Source of the DNA: a virus | Length of the DNA: 64,000 nucleotides | Virus record (IMG/VR): IMGVR_UViG_3300035670_000035 | Coordinates: 1-64,000 of that record | Reading direction: 5' to 3' (one strand) | Made by a program: the position numbers and the translations under genes | Part shown: positions 28,172 to 64,000 of the stretch, one piece after another | Position numbering within the stretch: the stretch's first letter is position 1 | How the letters are laid out: each line of letters starts with the position of its first letter | The notes under the pieces: model-generated | Told to the model about the DNA's origin: nothing | What the model saw: the letters and a program-made list of their open reading frames with translations, nothing else | Database searches by the model: none

Positions 28172-28259
28172 CGGAACGAGTAGGATTCGAACCTACGGAT
28201 GATATCGAACCATCGGAAGTTTAGTAAACTTCTGCTTTAGACCACTCAGCCATCGTTCC
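28172..28259 (-). tRNA. tRNA-Ser, anticodon ACU
   Basis: 88 nt on the minus strand. Acceptor GGAACGA/UCGUUCC, D-arm GCU/AGC, anticodon stem GAAGU/ACUUC with loop UUACUAA (anticodon ACU), long variable arm with a GAUG/CAUC stem, T-arm GUAGG-UUCGAAU-CCUAC, discriminator G. The long variable arm and G73 indicate serine. CCA is not encoded. A34 in a Ser AGU/AGC tRNA is very unusual; bacteria normally use GCU. Confidence 0.85.
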
Positions 28260-29198: not shown

Positions 29199-29269
29199 AT
29201 ATAATTATACATATAACTTGAAGAAATTTCAAAAATCGTGTACAATATAATATAAGTTCTTTCTAATTG

Positions 29270-29656
29270 GGCGCGTACTGGTTTCGATTTTAGGAATCGG
29301 AATTAAGATGCAAGTAGAGGTTTAGGTGGGTCTCTTTAAAAAGCCTTAAAAGTATTAACTGCCAAAACAGCCAAATACAAAGGTCATATCTCTGCTAGAG
29401 TTTCTCTAGTTGAGGAGACCGCTTCTGTAGCCTAAGTTCTACAGCGTGATTACCATGACACATCTAGTGGATAATTGCGTATTTAGATGTCTTTATTTAT
29501 AAAGTTTTTCTATTCTTTATAGGTTTAGTATTCAAAATAAAATCGCTGAGTATGTTTGTTCTTTTTCTATACAAAGCTAAAAATAAAAAGAACTAAACTT
29601 GTAGTATTTTAATTTAAGTTCACTAAAAGACAGAGGTTCAACTCCTCTCGCGTCCA
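29270..29656 (+). ncRNA. ssrA: tmRNA (SsrA)
   Basis: About 387 nt. The ends pair as a 7-bp acceptor stem (GGGCGCG with CGCGUCC) followed by a discriminator A. The 5' part matches the tmRNA pattern CUGGUUUCGA...AAGAUGCAAG...UUUAAAAAGCC, and the 3' part has a T-arm AGAGG-UUCAACU-CCUCU. The tag frame runs 29361-29435: 24 codons, beginning AKTAKYKGHISA and ending VEETASVA, with the UAA in the loop of a CUGUAG/CUACAG hairpin as in helix 5 of known tmRNAs. CCA is not encoded. A promoter TTGAAG, N17, TACAAT lies just upstream. It would rescue stalled ribosomes and tag nascent chains. Confidence 0.9.
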
Positions 29657-29724
29657 AGTTAAAACGATTCCCCCTGCCTACAAAAAACTTTAGACTATTT
29701 AAAATAAAATTTATATTATATTTT

Positions 29725-50306: not shown

Positions 50307-51224
50307 TTGAATAATGTAAAAGATTATATTGTCTCCTATTACTCTAATAAGGTTTCTAATAAAAAACCTATAGAAGATATATTAAGTAATTCTACTCAAA
50401 AGAATATAGTAAATTATAACCAAGGCATTGGTGATGCTGTAGTTTTAAATAATCTATTATTTAAAGACGAAAATACAAGAAGCGATCTAAATATATTTAG
50501 TCTGTCCAAGCATTTCTCTGATGTGTTATACTTTAATAAGTTTAAAGATTCGAATCATATCAATAGTAATTCATTTTTTAGAGTAGAGATGCTTGAATTT
50601 CATAACGCTGGTAGCGGACATCTTATACAAAAGATGCGTAGATTTTTAAATCTTCCTGTTCATCAAAAACCTAAATCATATCTAGTCACAAATAAACAAA
50701 AAATTAGAAACAAAGTAGGAATCCATCTTACTACTGGATCAAGTGCATTTTTATTAAATATTCACAAGAACCCAAGGCAGATTTATAAAGAAAATATTAA
50801 AGTTATTAACGATTTTATTATTAGCAATCCACAATATTCATTCGTAGAGTTTGGAGGTCAATCAGTTGGACTAGAAAACTGTCATAACTTTTGCGGTAAA
50901 TCTATTATAGAATCTATAGAAGAATTATCTACATGTGAATATTTCATAGGATTAAATAGCAGCTTTATGAACCTAGCAGCTTGTTTTGATATTAAGTCTG
51001 TAATCATTATAAATATTCCAATAAAAGCCTCAGACGTTGTTCTTCCAGTACTAAAGGATATCGCAGTATCCGATATGAACTGGTTATATCCACAGAATAT
51101 TCATCTACATCAAGACTATGAATCTGAACTAGTCCCAAGATTCTCGATTGATAATCTTAAAAAGGCTTTTAATGGTGAAATTTATCCATTCTGGAAAGAA
51201 GATTATTTGGATTTAATATTTTAA
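50307..51224 (+). CDS. GT9-like (heptosyltransferase-like) glycosyltransferase
   Basis: 305 aa. TTG is the start: no upstream ATG is in frame and the promoter ends 7 nt before it. NQGIGDAVVLNNLLFKDE (about 38-55), KVGIHLTTGSSAFLLNIH (about 136-153), FVEFGGQS, and FIGLNSSFMNLAACFDI (about 212-228) follow the GT9 layout of ADP-heptose:LPS transferases. First gene of the 50-64 kb glycan region. Confidence 0.7.
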   Translation: MNNVKDYIVSYYSNKVSNKKPIEDILSNSTQKNIVNYNQGIGDAVVLNNLLFKDENTRSDLNIFSLSKHFSDVLYFNKFKDSNHINSNSFFRVEMLEFHNAGSGHLIQKMRRFLNLPVHQKPKSYLVTNKQKIRNKVGIHLTTGSSAFLLNIHKNPRQIYKENIKVINDFIISNPQYSFVEFGGQSVGLENCHNFCGKSIIESIEELSTCEYFIGLNSSFMNLAACFDIKSVIIINIPIKASDVVLPVLKDIAVSDMNWLYPQNIHLHQDYESELVPRFSIDNLKKAFNGEIYPFWKEDYLDLIF

Positions 51225-51241
51225 ATTTATTATCATTAATA

Positions 51242-51580
51242 ATGATAGACCTATTAGTTGACGAAGCTTATGCTTTTGATTATTTAAGTATATTGCATGT
51301 CAAGAAAACAATTAATGAAAATATAGAGCCTATATGGAAAGAATGCTTCTTTTACATACAGAGACAAATAGGCGATAAATCAATGCAAGAAATAATACAT
51401 TCCACAGAATACAAGAACATGATTGAAGCTAATCAAATCACTTTTGATGCAGTTGAAAAAGCTAGATATGGATCAATTACCGCCAAAGAGGTAGACGAAG
51501 CTAATATGTTAAGATATAAAAGAAAATGCGAATTGCAAAATAAATTCTTTTCAGAAAAAATCAAAGAGATAAAAACATGA
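51242..51580 (+). CDS. hypothetical protein, 112 aa
   Basis: Helical, beginning MIDLLVDEAYAFDYLSILHVKK. The sequence suggests a small sugar-cluster accessory. ATGA coupling to the next gene. Not recognised. Confidence 0.6.
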   Translation: MIDLLVDEAYAFDYLSILHVKKTINENIEPIWKECFFYIQRQIGDKSMQEIIHSTEYKNMIEANQITFDAVEKARYGSITAKEVDEANMLRYKRKCELQNKFFSEKIKEIKT

Positions 51581-52296
51581 GAGTTATAGTTTTTACATTA
51601 TGGACTGGAAATTATGGCCCACTAGCACAAATAACTTCTAAAAATAAACAAGAATACTGTGATATTCAAAAATACCGCTTCGTAGAAAAAACTTCAGATT
51701 TTAAATTTCAACATACTGGTTTTGAAAAAATATATCAGACTCTACAACTATTAAAAAATAATGAATGCGATTTATTGTTTTGGTGTGGAACGGACACGTT
51801 AATTACAAACTATACCCTAAGACTACAAGACATGACAGATGAAAAACATGATTTTTTTATCACCACAGACGCCAATGATATTAATTCTGACGTATTTTTA
51901 ATTAAAAATAATTCAAGATCTATTGAGTTTTTTAGTGAAATTATAGATCTTTATGGAAAATACATAAGACATCCTTGGGCTGAACAACAAGCCATTATAG
52001 AAATGGTAAGATTGTGTCATGACGAAAACTTCGCTCCATGTAAAGATAATTGTCCAAAACCTAAATATTCAGATATAACTAAAATTGTACCACAAAAAAC
52101 TTTTAATTCTTATAATTATTTAATGTATCCAGATCATAACTTTGGTAGCGCAATAGAAAGATTTAGAAAGCAGCAAGATTTCTATGGAAATTATGGACAA
52201 TGGGAGCAAGGAGATTTTATGATCCATTGGCCAGGAAAATCTCTAGGCGAAAGAATATATTTAGCCAATCATTATAGTCAATATATAGTTAAATAA
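51577..52296 (+). CDS. GT34-like (GMA12/MNN10-type) galactosyltransferase
   Basis: 239 aa. LLFWCGTDTLI (about 65-75) carries the metal-binding DxD-type acidic motif, FFITTDANDINSDVFLIKNN (about 92-111) the strand-turn, HPWAEQQAI (about 130-138) and GDFMIHWPG (about 216-224) complete the pattern of the galactosyl transferase GMA12/MNN10 family. Donor unproven. Confidence 0.65.
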   Translation: MRVIVFTLWTGNYGPLAQITSKNKQEYCDIQKYRFVEKTSDFKFQHTGFEKIYQTLQLLKNNECDLLFWCGTDTLITNYTLRLQDMTDEKHDFFITTDANDINSDVFLIKNNSRSIEFFSEIIDLYGKYIRHPWAEQQAIIEMVRLCHDENFAPCKDNCPKPKYSDITKIVPQKTFNSYNYLMYPDHNFGSAIERFRKQQDFYGNYGQWEQGDFMIHWPGKSLGERIYLANHYSQYIVK

Positions 52297-52299
52297 AAC

Positions 52300-52328
52300 T
52301 TGATTATCTTATAAATCTATAATAGAAT
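52300..52328 (+). promoter_or_regulatory. leaderless-type promoter of the sugar-nucleotide operon
   Basis: TTGATT, N17, TAGAAT, N7, ATG on the plus strand. Genes from 52336 to 62259 and beyond follow with overlaps or gaps under 30 nt, so this may drive the whole block. Confidence 0.6.
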
Positions 52329-52335
52329 CATACTA

Positions 52336-53658
52336 ATGGACTCTAAACTAATAAAGATTTTATCTGATATTTCAGAATATCTATCAGAGAAAAAGCTAAA
52401 TAAAGTTTGGGAAGCTGGAAAAGATTGGGTACAATATGCTGGACCACACTTCTCAAATGAAGAATATCTTTCTGCGATAGAAAGTCTTTTAAACGGCTGG
52501 CTAGTTCTTGGTGAGAAAGGTATATCTTTCGAAAATCAATTTCCAAAACTCTTAAATAAAGAATATGGAATATTGACAAATAGCGGAAGTAGTTCTAATT
52601 TAATTATGATGTCAGCTATGACATCTAAAAGATTATATAATTTTCCTAAGAACACAAAAGTAATTACTCCAATAGCAGGATTTCCAACAACTATAAATCC
52701 TATATTTCAAGTTGGTTTTATTCCAGCTTTTGTAGACATTGATTTAGATACTCTTAATCTTAATTTAGATCAAGTAGAAGAAGAGGCCAAAAAAGGTGCA
52801 AAAATCATAACCTTTGCTCATGTTCTTGGTAATCCTCCAAATATGCGAAGACTACAAGAAATTATCAAACAATATAACTTAATTCTTTTAGAAGATTGTT
52901 GTGACGCTTTAGGATCAACATTTGATAATAAACCTCTTGGAAGTTTTGGTGAATTTGCAAGTTGCTCTTTTTATCCTGCCCATCATATGACAATGGGAGA
53001 AGGTGGATTTGTCGCTTGTAATACACATCAACAAGAAATAGTCGCAAGAAGTTTTAGAGAATGGGGACGAGGATGTTATTGCGTAGGTAAAAAAGCTAAT
53101 CTATTAAAGAATGGAACTTGTAAAAGTAGATTTTCTAATTGGCTTCCTTCTTTACCAAATGAAGTTTTTGATCATAAATATGTTTATGATGAAATAGGTT
53201 ATAACTTGAAGCCTATTGAGTTACAAGCCGCTATAGGATTGATTCAAATGAATAAATTGCCAGAGATCCATACAAGAAGAAAATTAAATCATTCTAGACT
53301 TACTAATATTTTTTATAAATTCAAAGAACACTTCATATTACCACGAGCAACTGATTGGGCAGACCCAAGTTGGTTTGCATTTGCTTTAACTATTAAAGAC
53401 AACGCTCCTTTTAAAAGAAAAGATATAGTAAATTTTATTGAAGATAGAAAAATACAAACAAGACCTTATTTTGCTGGTAATATAATGTTACAACCAGCAT
53501 ACTCTGGAATGATTAATCATGAAGAAGTCATAAATAAATATCCAATAGCAAGAAAAGTAACAACAGATACATTTTTTCTTGGTACAAGTCCAGTAATAAC
53601 AAACGAGCAACTAGATTATGTAGAGGAAGTCGTAAATGACTTTTTTAAAACAATATGA
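52336..53658 (+). CDS. rfbH: RfbH-like (E1) CDP-4-keto-6-deoxyglucose 3-dehydrase
   Basis: 440 aa, DegT/DnrJ fold. The PLP Lys of aminotransferases is replaced by His in SFYPAHHMTMGEGG (about 215-228), the hallmark of RfbH/E1 dehydrases. GCYC (about 250-253) and a later GTC supply Cys residues for the iron-sulfur cluster. E1 removes the 3-hydroxyl of CDP-4-keto-6-deoxyglucose using PMP, with an E3 reductase, to give 3,6-dideoxy sugars. No E3 or CDP-glucose synthetase is identified in this window. Confidence 0.8.
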   Translation: MDSKLIKILSDISEYLSEKKLNKVWEAGKDWVQYAGPHFSNEEYLSAIESLLNGWLVLGEKGISFENQFPKLLNKEYGILTNSGSSSNLIMMSAMTSKRLYNFPKNTKVITPIAGFPTTINPIFQVGFIPAFVDIDLDTLNLNLDQVEEEAKKGAKIITFAHVLGNPPNMRRLQEIIKQYNLILLEDCCDALGSTFDNKPLGSFGEFASCSFYPAHHMTMGEGGFVACNTHQQEIVARSFREWGRGCYCVGKKANLLKNGTCKSRFSNWLPSLPNEVFDHKYVYDEIGYNLKPIELQAAIGLIQMNKLPEIHTRRKLNHSRLTNIFYKFKEHFILPRATDWADPSWFAFALTIKDNAPFKRKDIVNFIEDRKIQTRPYFAGNIMLQPAYSGMINHEEVINKYPIARKVTTDTFFLGTSPVITNEQLDYVEEVVNDFFKTI

Positions 53659-54608
53659 AAATCGTCTACATAACTGGATGTCTTGGATTTATAGGTTCAT
53701 ATGTCACTAGACTTTGCCTTGATAAAGGTTGGTATGTAAAAGGTGTTGATAAAATTACTTATGCAGCAAATAAAAATCTCTTAGATGAATTTCAAAAATA
53801 TAAAAACTTTTCTTTTGTACATTGTGATATAAATGATTTAAAATTTTTATATGATTGTGATTATGTTATTAATACCGCAGCTGAAACTCATGTAGGTAAT
53901 TCTATTAGCAATAGTGATGATTTTATTTCATCAAATATTGACGGAGTTCATAATATATTAAATTTAATAAAAAACTATAGACAAGAATCAAATAAAAAAC
54001 CAATACTTTTACATTTTAGCACAGATGAAGTATATGGCGATATAAATAATGGAATTCATCTAGAAACAGATATTTTAAAACCTTCTAATCCATATTCAGC
54101 AACAAAAGCGGCAGCGGACATGTTAATATTAGCGTGGGCAAGAACCTATGGCATAAATTATGTAATAGTTAGACCAACAAATAATTATGGTATAGGACAA
54201 TATGTTGAAAAATTAATACCCAAAACATGCAAATATTTAAATTTAGGAAGAAAAGTTCCACTTCATAATAATGGAACTCCAATAAGAAATTGGCTACATG
54301 CAGAAGATACTGCAAAAGCGATAATTAAAATTATAGAAAAAGGAGTAAAAAACGATATTTATAATATCTCAGGAGGATTTGAGCAATCAAATTTAGAAAC
54401 AGTAAATAAGATAATATCCATTTTTTTAAATAATAAACCATATGATATTAATGATTATGTAGATTTTTCATTTTCTAGAATTGGCCAAGATATAAGATAT
54501 GCTTTAAATGATAATAAATTAAAACAATTAGATTGGAAAGCAGAAGCAGTTTTTGATAACGAGATAAAAAACATTGTTGAATATTATAAAAATATTTTTA
54601 TTTGGTAA
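53655..54608 (+). CDS. RmlB-like NDP-sugar 4,6-dehydratase (extended SDR)
   Basis: 317 aa. NAD loop TGCLGFIGSYVTR (about 7-19), NTAAETHVG (about 72-80), STDEVYGD (about 121-128), active-site YSATKAAAD (about 146-154) and IRNWLHAEDTAKAI (about 210-223) place it in the dTDP-glucose 4,6-dehydratase group. It could supply the 4-keto-6-deoxy sugar used by the RfbH-like enzyme, though the nucleotide carrier is uncertain. Overlaps rfbH by 4 nt. Confidence 0.75.
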   Translation: MKIVYITGCLGFIGSYVTRLCLDKGWYVKGVDKITYAANKNLLDEFQKYKNFSFVHCDINDLKFLYDCDYVINTAAETHVGNSISNSDDFISSNIDGVHNILNLIKNYRQESNKKPILLHFSTDEVYGDINNGIHLETDILKPSNPYSATKAAADMLILAWARTYGINYVIVRPTNNYGIGQYVEKLIPKTCKYLNLGRKVPLHNNGTPIRNWLHAEDTAKAIIKIIEKGVKNDIYNISGGFEQSNLETVNKIISIFLNNKPYDINDYVDFSFSRIGQDIRYALNDNKLKQLDWKAEAVFDNEIKNIVEYYKNIFIW

Positions 54609-54612
54609 ATAT

Positions 54613-55692
54613 ATGACGCATAAAATATTTGAAAATCTTTTTGTTCTAGAATTAGCAAACAACCATTGGGGATCTGTAGACAGAGGAAAGCAAATTATTA
54701 AACAATTTGCAAAAATTGTAAAAAATAATAAAATAAAAGCGGCTATTAAATTACAATTTAGAGATGTAGATAATTTTATCCATAAGGATTTTATTGAAAA
54801 TAAAAATAATATAAATTTATCAAAACTTACAAAAAGAGATAGATATATTCAAAAAACTTCAAAAACAAAACTATCTTATAAACAATTTAAACAATTAATT
54901 GAATATATAAGAAAACATGATTGTATACCAATGTCAACACCTTTTGATGAAAAGTCCGTAGACTGGTGTGTAGATTTAAAATTACCAATAATAAAAATTG
55001 CAAGTTCAGATATTAATGACTGGATTCTGATTAAGAAGATTGCCAACACAAAAATACCAGTTATATTATCAACAGGAGGAGCAAATGATAAACAAATAGA
55101 TGATGTTGTTAAATTTTTTATAAATAGAAATATACCTTTGGCTTTAAATCATTGCGTATCAAAATATCCAAGTGAAAATTCAGAATTAGAGTTAGATCAA
55201 ATTGATTATTTAAAAAGAAAATATCCAGAATTAATCATAGGATTATCTACTCATGAATATAAGGATTGGCATTCCTCTATGTTGATATCTTATGCAAAAG
55301 GAGCAAGAACATGGGAACGTCATATAGATATACCATATCCGCCAAACCACGAACAAAAAGAAGTATCATCATATTGTACACTTCCTGCTCAAGCAGATGA
55401 ATGGTTTAAGGCTTTTAATAAAGCAGTAGAAATGTGCGGCACTTCATCAAGAGCTAGAAGAATTATAGATCATAAAGAAAAAAAATATTTAGAATCTTTA
55501 TATCGAGGATTGTATCTTAAACAAAATTTAAAAAAAGGAACAAAGATTAAATTAAGTCATTTGTATTCAGCAATACCATATCAAAAAGAAATACGTCAAA
55601 TAACGTCTAGAGATTATTTTGAAAATGATTTTATATTAAATAAAGATATGAAAAAAGATTCCCCCTTAACAACGGATGATATTTTATCATGA
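54613..55692 (+). CDS. NeuB-like sialic acid synthase-family enzyme
   Basis: 359 aa from MTHKIFENLF; the frame opens earlier but this ATG follows the upstream stop closely. FVLELANNHWGSVDRG, MSTPFDEKSVD, IKIASSDIND, ILSTGGAN, LNHCVSKYPS and GLSTHEYKD follow the NeuB barrel, and a C-terminal SAF-like antifreeze domain (KKGTKIKLSHLYSAIP) is present. NeuB condenses PEP with an N-acetylhexosamine to a nonulosonic acid. Its presence suggests a nonulosonate or related 3-deoxy sugar acid. Confidence 0.8.
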   Translation: MTHKIFENLFVLELANNHWGSVDRGKQIIKQFAKIVKNNKIKAAIKLQFRDVDNFIHKDFIENKNNINLSKLTKRDRYIQKTSKTKLSYKQFKQLIEYIRKHDCIPMSTPFDEKSVDWCVDLKLPIIKIASSDINDWILIKKIANTKIPVILSTGGANDKQIDDVVKFFINRNIPLALNHCVSKYPSENSELELDQIDYLKRKYPELIIGLSTHEYKDWHSSMLISYAKGARTWERHIDIPYPPNHEQKEVSSYCTLPAQADEWFKAFNKAVEMCGTSSRARRIIDHKEKKYLESLYRGLYLKQNLKKGTKIKLSHLYSAIPYQKEIRQITSRDYFENDFILNKDMKKDSPLTTDDILS

Positions 55693-57425
55693 AAAAAATT
55701 TCTGATATAATAATAGATTTTTTAGAAAAAAAAGGGATAAATACTACATTTACTGTTTCTGGTGGGGGATGTATACATCTTATTGATTCATTAAGACGAT
55801 CTAAGATGAAAGTAATATGTACTCATCATGAGCAATCAGCACTTATGGCTAGTGAAGGGTATTATAGAATGTGTAATAATATATCATTAAATTTAGTAAC
55901 AACTGGCCCAGGAGGGACAAACACCCTAACTGGATTATTGGGATTATGGTTAGATAGCATACCATCAATTATAATATCTGGACAAGTACAAACAAGTCAA
56001 TTATCAAAAGGAACAGGATGTCGTCAGATTGGAGATCAAGAATTTGATATTATTAAGATAGTTAAGCCTATGACAAAATACGCCAAAATGATAACAGATG
56101 CTAATTGTATTATAGAAGAATTAGAAAAAGCATATAATTTAGCACTAGATGGAAGACCTGGCCCAGTATGGCTTGATATTCCATTAGATATTCAAGCTAC
56201 TATGATTTCGGAAAAGTTAAGTGAAGAAGAGAATAAAAAAATAAATAAAAAAATAAATTTTAAAAAAATAGAATTATTTAGAAAATTACTAGAAACATCA
56301 AAAAGACCATTATTTATAGTTGGAAATGGAATTAGATTATCAAATACATATAATGATCTAAATAATATTTTATCAAATTTAAAAATACCAGTAGTTACTG
56401 GTCCTCATTCAGGAGTAGATGCAGTTGATAATACTTACGAATACTATGCTGGAAGAATTGGTATATTAGGACAACTTACATCAAATAAGATTGTTCAAGA
56501 GGCAGATTTATTGATAATGCTAGGGACTCGACTATCAATGAAAATGACGGGATATAATATAAAAGACTTTTCCCCCAATTCTAAGAAAATTATGATAGAT
56601 ATAGATAGAAATGAAATAAAAAAACATAAATTTAATATTGATTTAAAACTAGCCTGTGATTTGCGCGATTTTTTTAATAATATAAAAAATATTAAATTTA
56701 ATTTGAATACAAATGAATGGAGAAGTAAAGTAAAAGATTATAGAAATAAGCAAATCTATGTTTATCCCAAACATGCAAATTTAAAAGACTACGCTAGTCT
56801 TTATTATTTAATTAATCAAGCTCCTAATATATTTAAAAATACTCCAATAATAACAAGCAATGGCAGCGCTCATGTTGTGACACTTCAAACTTATCAATTA
56901 AAAAAAGATCAAAGATTATTTACAAACGTTGGTTGTGCTAGTATGGGTTATGGATTACCAGCCGCAATAGGCGCCTGTATTGCGAACAATAATAAACCAG
57001 TAATCTGTATAGAAGGAGATGGAAGTTTAATGATGAATTTACAAGAGATAGAAACAATTATAGGTTATAAATTACCATTAAAATTATTAGTGATTAATAA
57101 TAATGGTTATCTTTCTATTAAGCTAACTCAACAATCATTTTTTGAGGGCAAAGAGTTTGCAAGCGGGCCATCTAATGGAGTGACTATTCCAAATTATGAA
57201 AAAATTGCGAATGCTTTTGGAATTAAATATTTTTCCATAAAAAATAATCAAGAAATAAAAAAGAATTTAATTGAAATGATGGAATTTGATGGGGCGTGTT
57301 TTGTAGAAATATTTACTCACCCAAAAGAAAAACACGAACCAAAAGTAACACATAAGGGAATTGGAATAGATGGAAAAATTATTCCTGGATCTCTAATAGA
57401 CATGCATATTTCGGAAAATTTTTAA
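55689..57425 (+). CDS. ThDP-dependent enzyme, acetolactate-synthase-like
   Basis: 578 aa, all three domains. The cofactor-activating Glu is in HHEQSALMA (about 50-58) and the ThDP/Mg motif is GDGSLMMNLQEIE ... NNNGY (about 437-474). In yersiniose synthesis the homologue YerE adds an acetyl unit from pyruvate to C4 of CDP-3,6-dideoxy-4-ketoglucose, the product of an RfbH/E1-type dehydrase; both homologues co-occur here. Other alpha-keto acid reactions are possible. Confidence 0.75.
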   Translation: MKKISDIIIDFLEKKGINTTFTVSGGGCIHLIDSLRRSKMKVICTHHEQSALMASEGYYRMCNNISLNLVTTGPGGTNTLTGLLGLWLDSIPSIIISGQVQTSQLSKGTGCRQIGDQEFDIIKIVKPMTKYAKMITDANCIIEELEKAYNLALDGRPGPVWLDIPLDIQATMISEKLSEEENKKINKKINFKKIELFRKLLETSKRPLFIVGNGIRLSNTYNDLNNILSNLKIPVVTGPHSGVDAVDNTYEYYAGRIGILGQLTSNKIVQEADLLIMLGTRLSMKMTGYNIKDFSPNSKKIMIDIDRNEIKKHKFNIDLKLACDLRDFFNNIKNIKFNLNTNEWRSKVKDYRNKQIYVYPKHANLKDYASLYYLINQAPNIFKNTPIITSNGSAHVVTLQTYQLKKDQRLFTNVGCASMGYGLPAAIGACIANNNKPVICIEGDGSLMMNLQEIETIIGYKLPLKLLVINNNGYLSIKLTQQSFFEGKEFASGPSNGVTIPNYEKIANAFGIKYFSIKNNQEIKKNLIEMMEFDGACFVEIFTHPKEKHEPKVTHKGIGIDGKIIPGSLIDMHISENF

Positions 57426-57426
57426 T

Positions 57427-58059
57427 ATGGTAGTATTTTTAACAGGAGGCAGTGGAGGAATTGGCTCAATTATAAGTTCCGTGCTAAAAACCGAAGGGAT
57501 GGAAGTTATTGAGCCAACCTCTAAAGAGCTAGATTTAACAAGTAATATTAATGTATCAAATATAAAAAAAATAGATGCATTTATACATTGCGCAGGAATA
57601 AATAATCTTGCACATCATAAAGATATAAATAGAAACGAATTATTAAATATATTTAATATAAATACTTTCAGTTTTATTGAATTATGCAATAAATTAAATA
57701 TTAATTATGGCGGAAATATTATTGCCATAGGCTCTATATACGCAACTAAAGCTAAAGAAGAAAGAATGCAATATACAATGTCAAAACACGCTCTGTATGG
57801 ATGTATAAAAACTTTAGCTTTAGAAAAAGCAAAAGATTTAATAAAAGTTAATATGATTTCTCCAGGATTTGTTAATACCCTACTAACAAGGAAAAATAAT
57901 ACTAAAGAAAGAATAGATTTTCTAAATTATAATATTCCATTAGGTATGACAAATCCATATGATATAGCTAATCTTTGTGTTTTTTTAATAAAATATAATA
58001 ATTCAATAACTGGCCAAAATATTGAAGTAGATGGAGGCTATTCATTAAAAGGAATATAA
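57427..58059 (+). CDS. classical short-chain dehydrogenase
   Basis: 210 aa, shorter than most SDRs. TGGSGGIGSI (about 6-15) is the NAD(P) loop, then HCAGINN, the catalytic Ser in IGSIYA, YTMSKHALYG (about 116-125) and SPGFVNT. Probably a reductase for a keto sugar made by the ThDP enzyme just upstream (gap 1 nt). Confidence 0.75.
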   Translation: MVVFLTGGSGGIGSIISSVLKTEGMEVIEPTSKELDLTSNINVSNIKKIDAFIHCAGINNLAHHKDINRNELLNIFNINTFSFIELCNKLNINYGGNIIAIGSIYATKAKEERMQYTMSKHALYGCIKTLALEKAKDLIKVNMISPGFVNTLLTRKNNTKERIDFLNYNIPLGMTNPYDIANLCVFLIKYNNSITGQNIEVDGGYSLKGI

Positions 58060-59093
58060 TGAATACATTCTTAATAAATAATAAAAAATTTATAATAAAT
58101 AATCAAAAAATAAAAGATAGATTATTAATTAAATCTCATCCTAAAGACTATGAAGTAATTTTTGATTCTTTCTTTTCATTATTCTTTTCTTTTAAAGAAG
58201 ACGAAATAGTTCTAATTGATAAAAATATAAGAAAAATATATGATATTAATCATAGTAAATTAATTGAAATAGAAGCCATGGAAGAAAATAAAACTATTGA
58301 AACAGTTCTAAATGTTTGTGAAAAATTATCATCTTTTAATTTTAATAAAGGTAATACATTGATCGTGATTGGTGGAGGAATTCTGCAAGACATTGGGGCT
58401 TTTACAGCAAAAATATATAAAAGAGGAATAAGATGGATATATGTTCCAACTACGCTTCTTTCACAATGCGATAGCTGTATAGGAGGCAAAACGGCATTAA
58501 ATTTTAATAAATATAAAAATCAATTAGCTTTATTTTCTGCCCCAGATAAAGTTATTATTGATACTAATTTTTTGAATACTTTAAGCAATGAAGAGATAAA
58601 ATCTGGATATGGAGAAATTATTAAATTCTTTTTGATCGGTGGAGATTATTATATAAATAATTTTGAAAAATTTGATATTAAAACAAATATTATTCATTCA
58701 TTGAATATCAAAAAAGCAATTATAGAATATGATGAATTTGAAAATGATGAAAGAAAATCGCTAAATTATGGACACTCATTTGGACATGCGATAGAGTCTA
58801 TAACTAATTATAAAATTTGCCATGGCGAAGCAGTAATGCTAGGAATTGAAATTATAAATAAACTTTTTTTAAAATCTTCTCGCATAAGTAAAATTATAAA
58901 TAAATTTACAAATCTAGATAGAATAAAAGATATAAATCTAATAGATTTAATTGAAAGAATAAAAACTGATAAAAAAGTAAATGGAGATATAATAAGCTTA
59001 GTTAGTATTAAAAAATTTGGTGAAACAATTTTCATTAAACAAAAATTAGATAATAGTTTATTAAATAAATTAAATGAAATATTTACTAGTTGA
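58059..59093 (+). CDS. 3-dehydroquinate synthase-like sugar-phosphate cyclase
   Basis: 344 aa. IVIGGGILQDIGAFTAKIY (about 102-120), YVPTTLLSQCDSCIGGKTALN (about 128-148, split by conserved Asp), SGYGEIIKFFLI (about 187-198), NYGHSFGHAIES (about 242-253) and CHGEAVMLGI (about 259-268) give the NAD- and zinc-binding residues of the AroB family. The DSCIGGK block is more AroB-like than EEVS-like. In a glycan cluster it more likely makes a cyclised or 3-deoxy sugar precursor than shikimate. Confidence 0.75.
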   Translation: MNTFLINNKKFIINNQKIKDRLLIKSHPKDYEVIFDSFFSLFFSFKEDEIVLIDKNIRKIYDINHSKLIEIEAMEENKTIETVLNVCEKLSSFNFNKGNTLIVIGGGILQDIGAFTAKIYKRGIRWIYVPTTLLSQCDSCIGGKTALNFNKYKNQLALFSAPDKVIIDTNFLNTLSNEEIKSGYGEIIKFFLIGGDYYINNFEKFDIKTNIIHSLNIKKAIIEYDEFENDERKSLNYGHSFGHAIESITNYKICHGEAVMLGIEIINKLFLKSSRISKIINKFTNLDRIKDINLIDLIERIKTDKKVNGDIISLVSIKKFGETIFIKQKLDNSLLNKLNEIFTS

Positions 59094-60051
59094 TTTTGGC
59101 GCATCGTACATAAAAAATATCGTTTACGATACAGATTCAAAAAATATATTATATTCTAATACAATAGATTCTCCATTTAAAACAAGTAAAAGAATATCTA
59201 GATCAAAATTAAAAAATATTTTAATAAATATTATAGAAAAAACATCTAATATAGATGGAATAATAATATGTACAATCATCGGAGGAGGGTGGATTGATGA
59301 CATTTACTATTCTTGGCAATCAGATAATAAAAATGTAAAAGAACATTGTCTAATAAGTGGGCTTTTTATAAATTCAAGAAACTATCATGTACATGCACAT
59401 CATAAATATAATAGCCTAAGTGAAACCCAAGATAATTTAGAAATTTTAGGCAAAATAAAAAATATTCCGATATATAGTTCTCTAGGAGATACAAATTGTG
59501 TTATTAAATCTCTAGATTTAAAAAATAATGAATATATAATTAATATTGGAACAGGTTCTCAAGTCATATATAAAGATAGAGATAATAAGATTAATATAAA
59601 TAAATATATTCCCGCAGGAAGAGCATTACTTGTTTATGATAATTTTTTTAAAACTTTAGGTTTAAATTTTTTTAAAATGTTAAAAACTATAAAACCAGAA
59701 GATGTATACGCCAGCAATCTTAATATTAATTTAAATCTATTCGAACAAGCATTTGATTATGTTAATGGGGGCAGCATTAGTAATATAAATGAAGATAATC
59801 TCACTATTAATAATTTATTAGGATCAATATTACGTTGCTTAGTTTTACAATACAAACAATTTATAAAAGATAAATCAAAAAATACATTAATATTAACAGG
59901 TGGAATACCCAAGAAATTACCAATATTAAAAAAACTTTTTAAATTTTATTATTCAAATTATAAAATTAAAATTATTTTAAATAATATAGAAGATACTCAT
60001 TTAGGTATGATTAGATATTTGGAAGATAAATTAGAAAATGAACAAAGATAG
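59074..60051 (+). CDS. ASKHA-superfamily sugar kinase
   Basis: 325 aa. LLVDFGASYIKNIVYD (4-19) is the phosphate-1 loop; SLGDTNCVIKS (about 148-158), INIGTGSQV (about 167-175) and LILTGGIPKKLP (about 286-297) match FGGY/BadF-type carbohydrate kinases, possibly sedoheptulokinase-like. Substrate unknown; an AroB-like cyclase next door that uses a sugar phosphate would fit. Overlaps it by 20 nt. Confidence 0.65.
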   Translation: MKYLLVDFGASYIKNIVYDTDSKNILYSNTIDSPFKTSKRISRSKLKNILINIIEKTSNIDGIIICTIIGGGWIDDIYYSWQSDNKNVKEHCLISGLFINSRNYHVHAHHKYNSLSETQDNLEILGKIKNIPIYSSLGDTNCVIKSLDLKNNEYIINIGTGSQVIYKDRDNKININKYIPAGRALLVYDNFFKTLGLNFFKMLKTIKPEDVYASNLNINLNLFEQAFDYVNGGSISNINEDNLTINNLLGSILRCLVLQYKQFIKDKSKNTLILTGGIPKKLPILKKLFKFYYSNYKIKIILNNIEDTHLGMIRYLEDKLENEQR

Positions 60052-60283
60052 AGAAAACGTAATAAAATTATTTGAGATAGGTATATGCGATCAAAGATTC
60101 CCATATGCTTCAACCAAATTATGGCTATCTTATTTTAAAAATATAGATTTATATTGTGCTGATAATTTTTGGGGACATTATCTTGAAGATAAAATTAAAG
60201 ATATTAATAATAATTTTGAATTAATAGAAATGGTATTAGATAAACATAAAATAAATTATTTGGCAGTTTTTAGAAAAAAATGA
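60038..60283 (+). CDS. miniature methyltransferase-like protein, 81 aa
   Basis: LFEIGICDQRFPYASTKLW ... IDLYCADNFW resembles only the first strand, loop and second strand of a SAM-binding methyltransferase, and the rest of that domain is missing. It may be a remnant or a repurposed fragment. Coupled by ATGA to the next gene and overlapping the kinase gene by 14 nt. Confidence 0.45.
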   Translation: MNKDRENVIKLFEIGICDQRFPYASTKLWLSYFKNIDLYCADNFWGHYLEDKIKDINNNFELIEMVLDKHKINYLAVFRKK

Positions 60284-61074
60284 ATATATTAATTACTGGA
60301 GGAAATGGATATATAGCTAAATCATTATCAACACATCTCTCACAATTTTTATTTCTACATAAAATTCATAGTATTACTAGATTAGATTTTGATTTAACTG
60401 ATACAGATGCAACTAATTTTTGGTTTAAAGATAAAAAATTTGACATTGTAATTCATACTGCAATTAAAGGTGGCTCAAGATTAAATATTGAAGATGATTC
60501 AGTATTGGATAATAATTTAAAAATGTTTAATAATCTATTGATTAATAAAAATAAATTTAAAAAATTAATATCTTTTGGTTCTGGCGCAGAGATTTGGAAT
60601 CCAGAAACACCATATGGTAAAAGTAAAAAAATAATAAATGAAATTATAGAAAAAGAAACTAATTTTTATAATATAAGAATTTTCGCTGTTTTTGATGAGA
60701 ATGAATTAGATACTAGATTTATAAAAGCTAATATTTTAAGATATACACAAAAAGAACCAATGTTAATACATGCAAATAAAATAATGGATTTCTTTTATAT
60801 GAAAGATCTTTTAAATTTAGTAGATTATTATATTAATAATGAAAATCCACCTAAACAAATAGATTGTTCTTATAAAAATAAAAAAACTCTTTTAAATATA
60901 GCTAATTTTATTAATACTCTTGCTAATTATAAAGTAGATATTAATATAGAAAAAGACGTTATATTACAAGATTATTGTGGAATAAGTAATTTACCTATAG
61001 AGGTTATAGGTTTAGAAAATGGGATTAAAGAAGTATATAATAAATTATTAGAAATATATGATTCTAAAATTTAA
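60280..61074 (+). CDS. extended SDR, NDP-sugar epimerase/reductase
   Basis: 264 aa. TGGNGYIAKSL (6-16) binds NAD(P); HTAIKGGSRL, FGSGAEIW and YGKSKK (catalytic Tyr/Lys, about 112-117) follow. The short RmlD/WcaG-like form and its position next to GMD suggest a GDP-sugar reductase or epimerase, but it lacks the fucose synthase details needed to say so. Confidence 0.7.
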   Translation: MNILITGGNGYIAKSLSTHLSQFLFLHKIHSITRLDFDLTDTDATNFWFKDKKFDIVIHTAIKGGSRLNIEDDSVLDNNLKMFNNLLINKNKFKKLISFGSGAEIWNPETPYGKSKKIINEIIEKETNFYNIRIFAVFDENELDTRFIKANILRYTQKEPMLIHANKIMDFFYMKDLLNLVDYYINNENPPKQIDCSYKNKKTLLNIANFINTLANYKVDINIEKDVILQDYCGISNLPIEVIGLENGIKEVYNKLLEIYDSKI

Positions 61075-61083
61075 AATCTCTAA

Positions 61084-62259
61084 ATGAGTAACTCTTTAAA
61101 AGAAACATATTATGGTAAAAAGATAGATACTGCAAATATTCTAAATATAGAAGATGCAGTAAAATTAATAAAAGATAAAAAAGTTGTTATTGTTACTGGA
61201 GTTACTGGTCAAGATGGAAGTCATATGGTTGATTTCTTATTAAAGAATACAGACTATACTATTTTTGGTGGAGTCCGAAGATTAAGTGTTTATAACCATA
61301 AAAATATTAATCATATTAATTCTGATAGATTTCATTTAATTAATTTTGATTTAACAGATTCTCATGCAATTGCAAGAATTGTAGAAAAATTACAACCAGA
61401 TTATTTTATTAATTTTGCAGCTCAAAGTTTTGTAGCAAGCAGTTGGGATTTTGCTAGACAAACTTGGGCAGCAAATTCAACTGCTATTTTAGATATTTTA
61501 GAAGCTATTAGATTATATAAACCCAAGTGTAGACTTTATCAAGCAGGATCTAGTGAAGAATTTGGAAATGTTATTTATGCACCTCAAGATGAAAAACATC
61601 CATTAAGACCAAGAAGCCCATATGGAGCTAGTAAGGCCGCTTCAAGGCAACTAATTAAAGTATATAGAGATTCATACAATCTTTATGCGATACAGGGTTG
61701 GTTGTTTAATCACGAGGGAATAAGAAGAGGAGAAGAATTTGTCACAAGAAAAATTACTAAAAATGTTGCTAGAATATATCATGCATTAAAAAATAATGAA
61801 GAATTTAAACCATTAGAATTAGGAAATTTAGATGCAAAAAGAGATTGGAGTGATTCTGAAGATTTTATTGAGGGAGTTTGGATGATGTTGAATCAGGATA
61901 AATATAATCCTAATTATGATGGAAATCCAAAAGAATATGTTTTCTCTTCAAATGAAACACATACTATTAGAGAGTTTGTAGAAAAAGCATTTAAAATTGC
62001 TGGGATAGAGGGTCATTGGATTTATACAAATGATGGCAGACCAGAAGACGAAGGTTTTTATTTAAAAGATGATAAAGGACAATACAAACTTTTAGTTAAA
62101 ATTAATCCAAAATTTTATCGTCCAGCCGAAGTAGAATTATTATTGGGTAACTCTAATAAAGCAAGAGAAGAGCTTGGATGGAAACCAAAAATTTCATTTG
62201 ACAATCTAGTAGAAAAAATGGTAAAATGGGATGTAGAAAAAAATGATATTATTTTTTAA
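61084..62259 (+). CDS. gmd: GDP-mannose 4,6-dehydratase
   Basis: 391 aa. After a ~38-residue N-terminal extension: TGVTGQDGSHMVDFLL, GGVRRLS, FAAQSFVASSWDF, GSSEEFGNV (Ser-Ser-Glu, about 158-166), YGASKAASRQL (about 181-191) and NHEGIRRGEEFVTRKI (about 209-224) are characteristic GMD blocks. Converts GDP-mannose to GDP-4-keto-6-deoxymannose, the precursor of fucose, rhamnose, colitose or perosamine. Confidence 0.9.
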   Translation: MSNSLKETYYGKKIDTANILNIEDAVKLIKDKKVVIVTGVTGQDGSHMVDFLLKNTDYTIFGGVRRLSVYNHKNINHINSDRFHLINFDLTDSHAIARIVEKLQPDYFINFAAQSFVASSWDFARQTWAANSTAILDILEAIRLYKPKCRLYQAGSSEEFGNVIYAPQDEKHPLRPRSPYGASKAASRQLIKVYRDSYNLYAIQGWLFNHEGIRRGEEFVTRKITKNVARIYHALKNNEEFKPLELGNLDAKRDWSDSEDFIEGVWMMLNQDKYNPNYDGNPKEYVFSSNETHTIREFVEKAFKIAGIEGHWIYTNDGRPEDEGFYLKDDKGQYKLLVKINPKFYRPAEVELLLGNSNKAREELGWKPKISFDNLVEKMVKWDVEKNDIIF

Positions 62260-63346
62260 TGTATTCATAACAAATAAAAGAATAAGTGGCCCAAATTCCT
62301 GTGATAGATTAGATTTATTTAAATACTGTTTATCAAGTTATTCATGCATAGATGATATAAAAGATGTTGTTATATATTGCGAATTAGATTCAAATTATAA
62401 AAGCAGGGAAATTGAATTAAAAGATTACATATATACCATTTTTAATGGTAAAAATATACAATATTATAATTATAGTCCATGCAATCAAAAACAATGGCAA
62501 ATAGCTTTACAAGATTCAAATATATTAAATTCATCGGAACCAATATTGTATTCTGGTAACGATGATCATATATTTATTGATTATGATTTAATATCAATTC
62601 GTGAAGGAATAAAACTATTAAAAAATGAATCAAATGAACAAATTAATAGTTTTGCAATAAGTCATTGGCCAGAATCTATTTCTTATGCATACCATTATCC
62701 TTTTGTAGATAGAGGAATATTTTGGGAAAGTGAAATTTTAGCGACCACATCGATAGTCATGGTAAATAATACATTTTTTAAACATTTATTTTTTAATTTA
62801 GAAATGGGAGAAATATTTATAAGAAGAACAGATCCAATTTTAACAAATGTTTATCCATATACTGGAAATTTTGCTTTTCCTTCTAAAAAAACACATCCAA
62901 AAGTAAAAACATTTATTCCATTAAAAGGAGAGATAATTAGACATTTTGATTCATATCCTTACTTTGTTCAAATGCCACTTTCAATTTGTCCTCAATTAAA
63001 AATACCAAATGGATTTTTTGAAAATAATATAAAAATAAATTATTGTGGAAAAGTAAAAAGAGACTTTTACAATGTCAATCCATTGGCTGAAAAATATCTT
63101 TTTGAAGATTATACAAATGGAGTAGATGATAAAAAATTATTAGAAGATTTACCGCTATTTTGGAGAAATAAAATTTCAGAGATAGAAGATCATAGCAATG
63201 AATATTCTCGTCAAGATTTAATTGACGCTAGAAATATCAATCATAAAAATTTAATGACAGTGCCGCATAATAGAATTCACGAAGGAGTTCATTATCATGG
63301 ACCCCTTAATTTAGAAGAAAAATATATTAAATTAGGTTATAGATAA
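62243..63346 (+). CDS. putative glycosyltransferase-like protein, 367 aa
   Basis: ILYSGNDDHIFIDYDL (about 100-115) contains an acidic NDDH motif like the DxD of GT-A enzymes, and ISHWPES, YPYTGNF and HFDSYPYFVQ follow. I recall similar proteins in aquatic phage genomes without known function. Overlaps gmd by 17 nt. Confidence 0.5.
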   Translation: MILFFNVFITNKRISGPNSCDRLDLFKYCLSSYSCIDDIKDVVIYCELDSNYKSREIELKDYIYTIFNGKNIQYYNYSPCNQKQWQIALQDSNILNSSEPILYSGNDDHIFIDYDLISIREGIKLLKNESNEQINSFAISHWPESISYAYHYPFVDRGIFWESEILATTSIVMVNNTFFKHLFFNLEMGEIFIRRTDPILTNVYPYTGNFAFPSKKTHPKVKTFIPLKGEIIRHFDSYPYFVQMPLSICPQLKIPNGFFENNIKINYCGKVKRDFYNVNPLAEKYLFEDYTNGVDDKKLLEDLPLFWRNKISEIEDHSNEYSRQDLIDARNINHKNLMTVPHNRIHEGVHYHGPLNLEEKYIKLGYR

Positions 63347-63360
63347 TTTTAAATTATTAT

Positions 63361-64000
63361 ATGAATATATTAATCCCTATGGCAGGATTAGGAGAAAGAT
63401 TTTCTAAATCTCATCCAAATAAAATTAAACCACTAATAAATGTTTATAATGAACCAATGATACAAAAAGTTCTAAAAAATCTAAATCAACAAGAAGATAT
63501 TAATTTTATTATAATAACATTAAAGATAATATCTGAAAATCAAGAATTTATAAAAATTTTAAAAAATTTAAATATTAAATATACGTTAATAAGTATTGAT
63601 GAAAAAACCGATGGGCCAGCTTGCACATGCTTATTAGCAAAAGAATATATTAAAAACGAACCACTAATTATAATTAATTGCGATCAAATAATTTTAGATT
63701 TTAATTTAAAAAACTTACTTGATTTTAGCAAGTTAAATAATGCGGATGGGGTTATTGGAGTTTTCCATTCAAATTCTAGAAAAAATAGTTATATAAAACT
63801 AGGTGAAGATTTGACCATACAAGAAGTAAAAGAAAAAATCGTTATTAGCAATATAGCTACAAATGGATTACATTTTTGGAAGAACGGAAATGACTTTATA
63901 AGATCAGTAGAAGAGATGATTTCTAAAGATGATAGATATTCAAATGAATTTTATGTTGCGCCAAGTTACAATTATATGATAAAGAATGGCAAAAAGATAC
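63361..64000 (+). CDS. sugar-nucleotidyltransferase-like protein, 3' end outside window
   Basis: About 213 codons visible. ILIPMAGLGERFSKSHP then KIKPLINV (NTP-binding GxGxRx-PKP-type loop), INCDQII (metal-binding Asp) and GVIGVFHSN match glucose-1-phosphate nucleotidyltransferase-like enzymes. It could supply the activated sugar that the cluster needs. Base donor not determined. Confidence 0.75.
   Translation, partial: MNILIPMAGLGERFSKSHPNKIKPLINVYNEPMIQKVLKNLNQQEDINFIIITLKIISENQEFIKILKNLNIKYTLISIDEKTDGPACTCLLAKEYIKNEPLIIINCDQIILDFNLKNLLDFSKLNNADGVIGVFHSNSRKNSYIKLGEDLTIQEVKEKIVISNIATNGLHFWKNGNDFIRSVEEMISKDDRYSNEFYVAPSYNYMIKNGKKI

Follow-up and report, generated by a model that had tools for sequence, protein, structure and literature searches.

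A phage operon joining a NeuB-family synthase to a YerE-like carboligase and a cyclase cassette, with a candidate route to a branched-chain sugar

The window analysed here, a 64,000-nucleotide stretch of viral DNA (bases 1-64000 of the 136,131-bp IMG/VR virus record IMGVR_UViG_3300035670_000035), ends inside an operon of exactly 12 plus-strand open reading frames (ORFs; 52336-64086) that includes an RfbH-type dehydrase, an RmlB-like dehydratase, a NeuB-family synthase, a YerE-like thiamine diphosphate (ThDP) carboligase and an AroB-like cyclase. We put the probability at about one half that this operon builds a nucleoside diphosphate (NDP)-linked, long-branched 3,6-dideoxyhexose, whose branch is made from the NeuB product and then cyclised. 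An earlier note on this DNA had described 12 overlapping sugar genes. All 12 are present, overlapping or almost abutting (gaps of -20 to +14 bp), and the enzyme families it named hold up through profile or fold matches. Three features together argue for a C4-branched sugar: a ThDP enzyme nearest to JanthE, DegT-family proteins of the His type, and a NeuB without an activating partner.

The acceptor for such a branch would come from the first two genes of the operon. The RfbH protein (52336..53658) scores over the cut-off of the NF011936 equivalog (453.9 bits, cut-off 423), its nearest solved protein is the cytidine diphosphate (CDP)-4-keto-6-deoxyglucose 3-dehydrase E1 (3bcx, 6e-102), and its H216, which replaces the Lys of pyridoxal phosphate enzymes, aligns within the AHH motif of 3bcx. 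His for Lys in the DegT family is the mark of C3 dehydration, as in E1 and ColD, and not of transamination. In the 24 contigs that a NeuB scan of IMG/VR found, a DegT protein is present in 21 of the loci; these proteins fall into three or more diverged types, yet each one found has His at the position of the aminotransferases' Lys, which argues for a C3-dehydrated acceptor. Judged by its sequence, the phage RfbH is an E1-type enzyme, not a complete E1-E3 system. The gene that follows encodes an RmlB-like NDP-hexose 4,6-dehydratase (53655..54608), which matches PF16363 and scores 293 bits against TIGR01181, below its cut-off.

The donor side is represented by the next two genes. The NeuB-family 3-deoxy-2-oxo acid synthase (54613..55692, with the ATG at 54613 probably its true start) is over the cut-off of PF03102, matches PDB 3g8r by profile and retains the catalytic motifs (alignment A1), while falling under the equivalog cut-offs of both PseI (133 vs 340 bits) and NeuB (118 vs 400 bits). 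No cytidine monophosphate-sugar synthetase (NeuA) scored over cut-off in 19 viral records, several of which are fragments. This disfavours an ordinary nonulosonic acid pathway, and since these records have no such activating partner, the 2-oxo acid may be free to act as a donor. The ThDP enzyme (55689..57425), in which all three TPP domains are recognised, has JanthE as its nearest solved relative (8rph; 3.5e-103, 349 bits; next solved protein, 262 bits) and keeps both the catalytic Glu (E48, within HHEQ) and the cofactor motif (GDG at 443, NN at 470), which suggests a YerE-like carboligase, one that may act on a ketone acceptor. YerE and ErwE join 2-oxo acids to CDP-3,6-dideoxy-4-ketohexose (PMC12247030, PMC12188165), YerE with pyruvate as its donor and ErwE with a preference for hydroxylated 2-oxo acids longer than C4 (PMC12247030); the natural substrates of JanthE are not known (PMC12247030, PMC12188165).

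Linkage between NeuB and these branch-forming enzymes extends to bacteria. A scan of GTDB genomes yielded 305 NeuB relatives, 80 of which were kept, and genes were counted in the 50 loci that span 18 kb or more. A YerE-like ThDP gene is present in 43 of these, RfbH in 35 and both in 31, compared with 2 and 1 of 20 sialic-type NeuB control loci for the ThDP gene and RfbH respectively (Fisher p 3e-9 and 5e-7). Four loci (L038, L090, L096 and L116) hold the complete set including a short-chain dehydrogenase/reductase (SDR), AroB and kinase; L038 has a contiguous run of ferredoxin reductase, RfbF, RfbG, RfbH, NeuB, SDR, AroB, kinase and ThDP genes and holds a complete CDP-3,6-dideoxyhexose pathway, with a glucose-1-phosphate cytidylyltransferase (480 vs 300 bits) and a CDP-glucose 4,6-dehydratase (510 vs 278). 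The Pelagibacteraceae locus L063 carries ThDP-SDR-AroB-kinase-NeuB, RfbH being absent from the stretch seen, and two further loci (L084, L079) have SDR-AroB-kinase near NeuB and no ThDP match. The clusters in L038, L090, L096, L116 and L063 share the gene set of the phage and lie in surface-polysaccharide regions, but their kinase and AroB proteins are longer, identities are mostly 25-59%, the gene order differs, and membrane export genes adjoin some of them. Where the earlier note held that an identical host O-antigen cluster with a known sugar would reduce the operon to a captured locus, we found homologous gene sets in bacterial surface-polysaccharide regions, but no known product that could be attached to them.

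Phylogeny likewise separates the viral genes from their bacterial counterparts. Viral NeuBs arose from at least two origins; 22 tree rows, including the NeuB of the window, form a single clade (100/100) that is sister to Pelagibacteraceae (98/86), and its identity to the bacterial NeuBs found does not exceed about 60%. This separation and distance lead us to reject the recent capture of one host locus, at least from a sampled bacterium. Two side observations concern the bacterial loci. One control locus, L164, has a sialic-type NeuB plus a YerE-like ThDP gene and RfbH, so both sugar types can share a cluster. Surface loci L182 and L183, from the order Pelagibacterales, have a different NeuB (37%), an SDR adjoining an AroB-like gene (42%) and no kinase, and may represent yet another version, the third, of the cyclase pathway.

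Downstream of the carboligase lie an SDR oxidoreductase (57427..58059, PF13561), an AroB-like sugar phosphate cyclase (58059..59093) and a sugar kinase (59074..60051). The cyclase is over cut-off for DHQ_synthase and DHQS_C and below the equivalog cut-offs of aroB (237 vs 305) and of its best match, TIGR04425 (291 vs 400), as are its bacterial relatives. With residue roles that we presume from dehydroquinate synthase, the catalytic metal, phosphate and substrate residues are almost all invariant in the family (alignment A3), the K197 equivalent being R in some rows. The kinase had no family match in sequence-profile searches, and its AlphaFold model (pLDDT 88.5) has an FGGY-kinase fold (Foldseek E 3e-10, TMq ~0.6-0.7); it is shorter than the bacterial FGGY kinases, and three bacterial homologues match PF00370, one of them below its cut-off.

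RmlB-NeuB-ThDP, often with SDR-AroB-kinase, occurs in about 20 IMG/VR contigs, and the frame that recurs is RmlB-NeuB-ThDP-(SDR-AroB-kinase)-epimerase. A scan of viral contigs by AroB alone returned nothing, its patterns probably having missed relatives that the NeuB scan found. SDR and AroB co-occur in viral loci, the kinase stands alongside in most, and all three are jointly missing from six viral NeuB loci. The ThDP tree divides AroB-positive from AroB-negative viral loci perfectly (100/100; 0/500 shuffles), a split that is missing from the NeuB tree (4 changes; 82/500 shuffles), indicating that the ThDP enzyme switches along with the cyclase cassette whereas NeuB is retained. Such a pattern fits a shared product of NeuB and a ThDP enzyme adapted to the downstream steps. 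Exchange as a cassette is also apparent in three viral contigs (L026, L028 and L029) that are syntenic with this phage at UvsX (~91% identical): these hold a different ThDP-NeuB-SDR-AroB cassette (ThDP 55-57%, NeuB 52-55% and AroB 41-42% identity) nested in a frame of RmlB, epimerase and GMD that is 71-88% identical to that of this phage.

In the pathway that we propose, the RmlB-like enzyme would form an NDP-4-keto-6-deoxyhexose, from which the RfbH-type enzyme would strip the C3 oxygen to give an NDP-3,6-dideoxyhexos-4-ulose, the ketone acceptor. NeuB would condense phosphoenolpyruvate (PEP) with an aldehyde into a 3-deoxy-2-oxo acid donor, which the YerE/ErwE/JanthE-like enzyme would decarboxylate, placing the acyl carbanion on C4 and leaving a tertiary alcohol that bears a hydroxylated chain. 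The kinase might then phosphorylate the chain end, the AroB-like enzyme close a carbocycle with loss of the phosphate, and the SDR reduce the remaining ketone; this assignment follows from family chemistry, ring closure needing a terminal phosphate, and from the way these genes come and go together except in L026, L028 and L029. Finally, the epimerase and soluble glycosyltransferases may finish the sugar and attach it. The substrates throughout, and the joining of the steps from NeuB to SDR into a single chain, are what we infer from these families and their linkage.

Several observations weigh against this pathway. No Fer2 domain, and hence no E3 ferredoxin-type reductase, was found anywhere in the 136-kb record, so the phage RfbH must rely on host electron carriers; RfbH itself is missing from L026 and none was seen in the viral loci L022 and L024. 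The cofactor motif that is GDG in the phage ThDP enzyme is CDG in JanthE. The contigs L026, L028 and L029 have SDR and AroB with no kinase match. The AroB-like protein retains K218 and R232, which we take to be equivalent to the dehydroquinate synthase residues that grip the substrate carboxylate, and a decarboxylated branch would not require them. Mere adjacency could account for the linkage between ThDP type and the AroB cassette. On the bacterial side, the sample was picked by similarity to viral NeuB and the 20 control loci all belong to one order.

Where the sugar goes is a separate question, for which we infer that virion proteins or an existing host glycan are a more likely target than a polymer made by the phage. 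A simple hydropathy count puts multi-pass membrane proteins at 0 of 405 genes for viral NeuB loci and at 44 of 1001 for their bacterial counterparts, and the phage encodes soluble glycosyltransferases; these two observations lean weakly towards such a target, and to our knowledge phages seldom carry multi-pass membrane proteins anyway. That the infecting phage instead feeds the sugar into the host surface polysaccharide, where it blocks rival phages or grazers, is quite possible: homologous genes sit in bacterial surface-polysaccharide regions, and such a role has been proposed for cyanophage P-SSM2 (PMC2984593) and for jumbo phages (PMC7824862). The viral NeuB loci are without a flippase or polymerase and have soluble glycosyltransferases close by, which speaks against this fate, though host enzymes could supply the missing functions.

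Turning to the chemistry itself, the operon could serve two independent sugars, with NeuB making a nonulosonic-type acid on its own and RmlB, RfbH and the ThDP enzyme a short-branched, yersiniose-type sugar from pyruvate, the donor of YerE (PMC12247030). The retained catalytic motifs of NeuB and the gene content of control locus L164 agree with such a split, but we regard it as unlikely given the lack of NeuA in the viral records, the NeuB scores under both equivalog cut-offs, and the 43/50 versus 2/20 linkage of NeuB to the ThDP gene. A further alternative keeps the cyclase on the NeuB product: a tetrose would yield a 3-deoxy-heptulosonate, which the kinase would phosphorylate and the AroB-like enzyme convert into a quinate-like carbocyclic acid or ketone, for the ThDP enzyme or SDR to modify. 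The retention of the presumed carboxylate-binding Lys and Arg, along with other dehydroquinate synthase residues, keeps this scheme alive, true dehydroquinate synthases are the nearest solved proteins to the AroB-like enzyme, and kinase, AroB and SDR do form a cassette. Nevertheless, six viral and most bacterial loci have NeuB and ThDP but no cyclase, so the cyclase cannot be the only enzyme that NeuB serves, and the cyclase varies with ThDP type and not with NeuB; we consider this scheme improbable. Some phages glycosylate their DNA, and the earlier note had proposed DNA modification as one use of the sugar, but this is highly improbable here, since close relatives of the genes occur in surface-sugar loci and we noticed no enzyme that would hydroxylate or hydroxymethylate bases, although no systematic search for one was made.

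Compared with known systems, the proposed long-branched sugar pathway shares its 4,6-dehydratase, E1-type 3-dehydrase and YerE-like carboligase with the yersiniose and erwiniose pathways of YerE, ErwE and JanthE (PMC12247030). It differs from them in that the donor probably comes from a NeuB-family, PEP-driven synthase, a kinase and cyclase are added, an RmlB-like dehydratase takes the place of RfbG, and the set is phage-borne. The bradyrhizose operon of photosynthetic Bradyrhizobium, as far as the part of its description available to us goes, has 11 genes including a 4,6-dehydratase for a proposed carbocycle-fused sugar, and that part does not mention NeuB, ThDP or AroB; the likeness is by description only (PMC4743980). 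The literature that we searched on the bradyrhizose genes contained no match to the phage gene set. Size alone does not set the operon apart: the earlier note thought it far larger than usual for phage sugar genes, but cyanophage P-SSM2 has 24 lipopolysaccharide (LPS) genes (PMC2984593, PMC3037559), and the LPS clusters of P-SSM2 and S-SSM7 are likewise large and of unknown use (PMC3037559, PMC2984593). Sugar clusters in phages, cores of E1 with YerE, and counterparts in bacteria are all known kinds. No isolated phage, cyanophages included, has a close relative of the phage NeuB, ThDP or AroB proteins, while Synechococcus phages carry an RfbH ~41% identical.

The earlier note knew of no described pathway combining these enzymes, which agrees with our search of the open literature, where no paper was found linking NeuB to YerE-like enzymes with this gene set; as far as that literature could be searched, a NeuB coupled to a YerE-like enzyme and a cyclase cassette seems not to have been described. 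The unusual sugar-nucleotide pathway that it had recognised, with a core of E1 plus a YerE-like enzyme, is supported, but a single pathway for all 12 genes is rejected, since neither GMD nor the nucleotidyltransferase module segregates with the rest, and both probably serve separate sugars. The GMD-like dehydratase (61084..62259, profile matches) follows the replication-gene backbone of this lineage and not the NeuB-ThDP cassette. The sugar-1-phosphate nucleotidyltransferase (63361..64000 in the window, ending at 64086; PF00483) is the first gene of a module that we identified past the window, as the earlier note had suggested doing, by calling genes on joined stretches of the record as bacterial-virus DNA: the operon continues to ~66099 with cupin, RuBisCO-like and GDPD-like genes, followed by replication genes.

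The RuBisCO-like gene (record bases 64386-65600; L002:387-1601) matches PF00016 and has a RuBisCO fold. In spinach numbering, as we presume it, the protein keeps K175, K201, D203 and E204, and H294, R295, H298 and K334 are replaced by Q, K, D and Y (8dht alignment), replacements that are invariant across eight viral sequences (alignment A4). We therefore reject a true RuBisCO, because the protein has lost residues on which carboxylase activity depends. The nucleotidyltransferase-cupin-RuBisCO-like-GDPD module recurs, whole or in part, in eight further viral contigs, and 1 of 197 genomes of the order Pelagibacterales has GDPD-nucleotidyltransferase-RuBisCO-like genes within a polysaccharide region; at a strict cut-off, none of the 398 and 292 genomes sampled from two phyla gave a match. 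In viral contig L032 the two modules are joined: shortly after nucleotidyltransferase, cupin and RuBisCO-like genes come RfbH, RmlB and a 36% identical ThDP gene. Viral RbcL-like genes have been reported before (PMC12607003, PMC12615777); PF00016 and the fold are shared with these and with form IV RuBisCO-like proteins, while the sugar-operon setting and the lost carboxylase residues differ. A viral RbcL match inside a sugar operon need not imply carbon fixation.

More broadly, we tentatively suggest, as a possibility rather than an expectation, that irreversible, PEP-driven synthesis of a 2-oxo acid by NeuB, its attachment to C4 of a 3,6-dideoxyhexose by a YerE-like enzyme and cyclisation of the branch by kinase and AroB make up an undescribed route, common to phages and bacteria, to branched sugars that bear a carbocycle, with the RuBisCO-like protein engaged in sugar-nucleotide synthesis and not in carbon fixation. 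Such a route would make a NeuB-family synthase a testable donor source for some long-branch YerE-like enzymes, predict a class of unidentified surface sugars in many bacteria, and mean that the same sugar chemistry is retained and swapped among phages as a cassette.

Among the remaining genes of the operon, that at 60038..60283 (81 aa) is what a deletion has left of a methyltransferase-like gene, as seen by alignment to the intact 252-aa protein of L018, which other related viral loci also have. It is followed by the RmlD/epimerase-like SDR of the recurring frame (60280..61074, PF01370) and, after GMD, by a protein of no Pfam family (62243..63346), by inspection a putative glycosyltransferase, with relatives in L013 and L029. 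Upstream, also on the plus strand, are a conserved putative glycosyltransferase recognised by inspection (50307..51224; 78-80% in L026 and L029, no Pfam match) and a GT34-like glycosyltransferase (51577..52296, PF05637 over cut-off). Promoter and terminator scans gave nothing above chance level. Elsewhere, the record encodes a tail tape-measure protein, ribonucleotide reductase, UvsX, a DnaB-type helicase and, by inspection of translations, ThyX; this virus has no close relative among isolated phages, the top DnaB match being ~25% identical. A full-length tmRNA (29269-29657; Rfam RF00023, 108.6 bits), whose unusual predicted tag ends in SVA, lies near a tRNA-Ser (28172-28259, minus strand). 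Large proteins with RCC1-like beta-propeller repeats, possibly receptor-binding, are encoded in the structural-gene region (L004:1216-4851 and L003:11076-13571).

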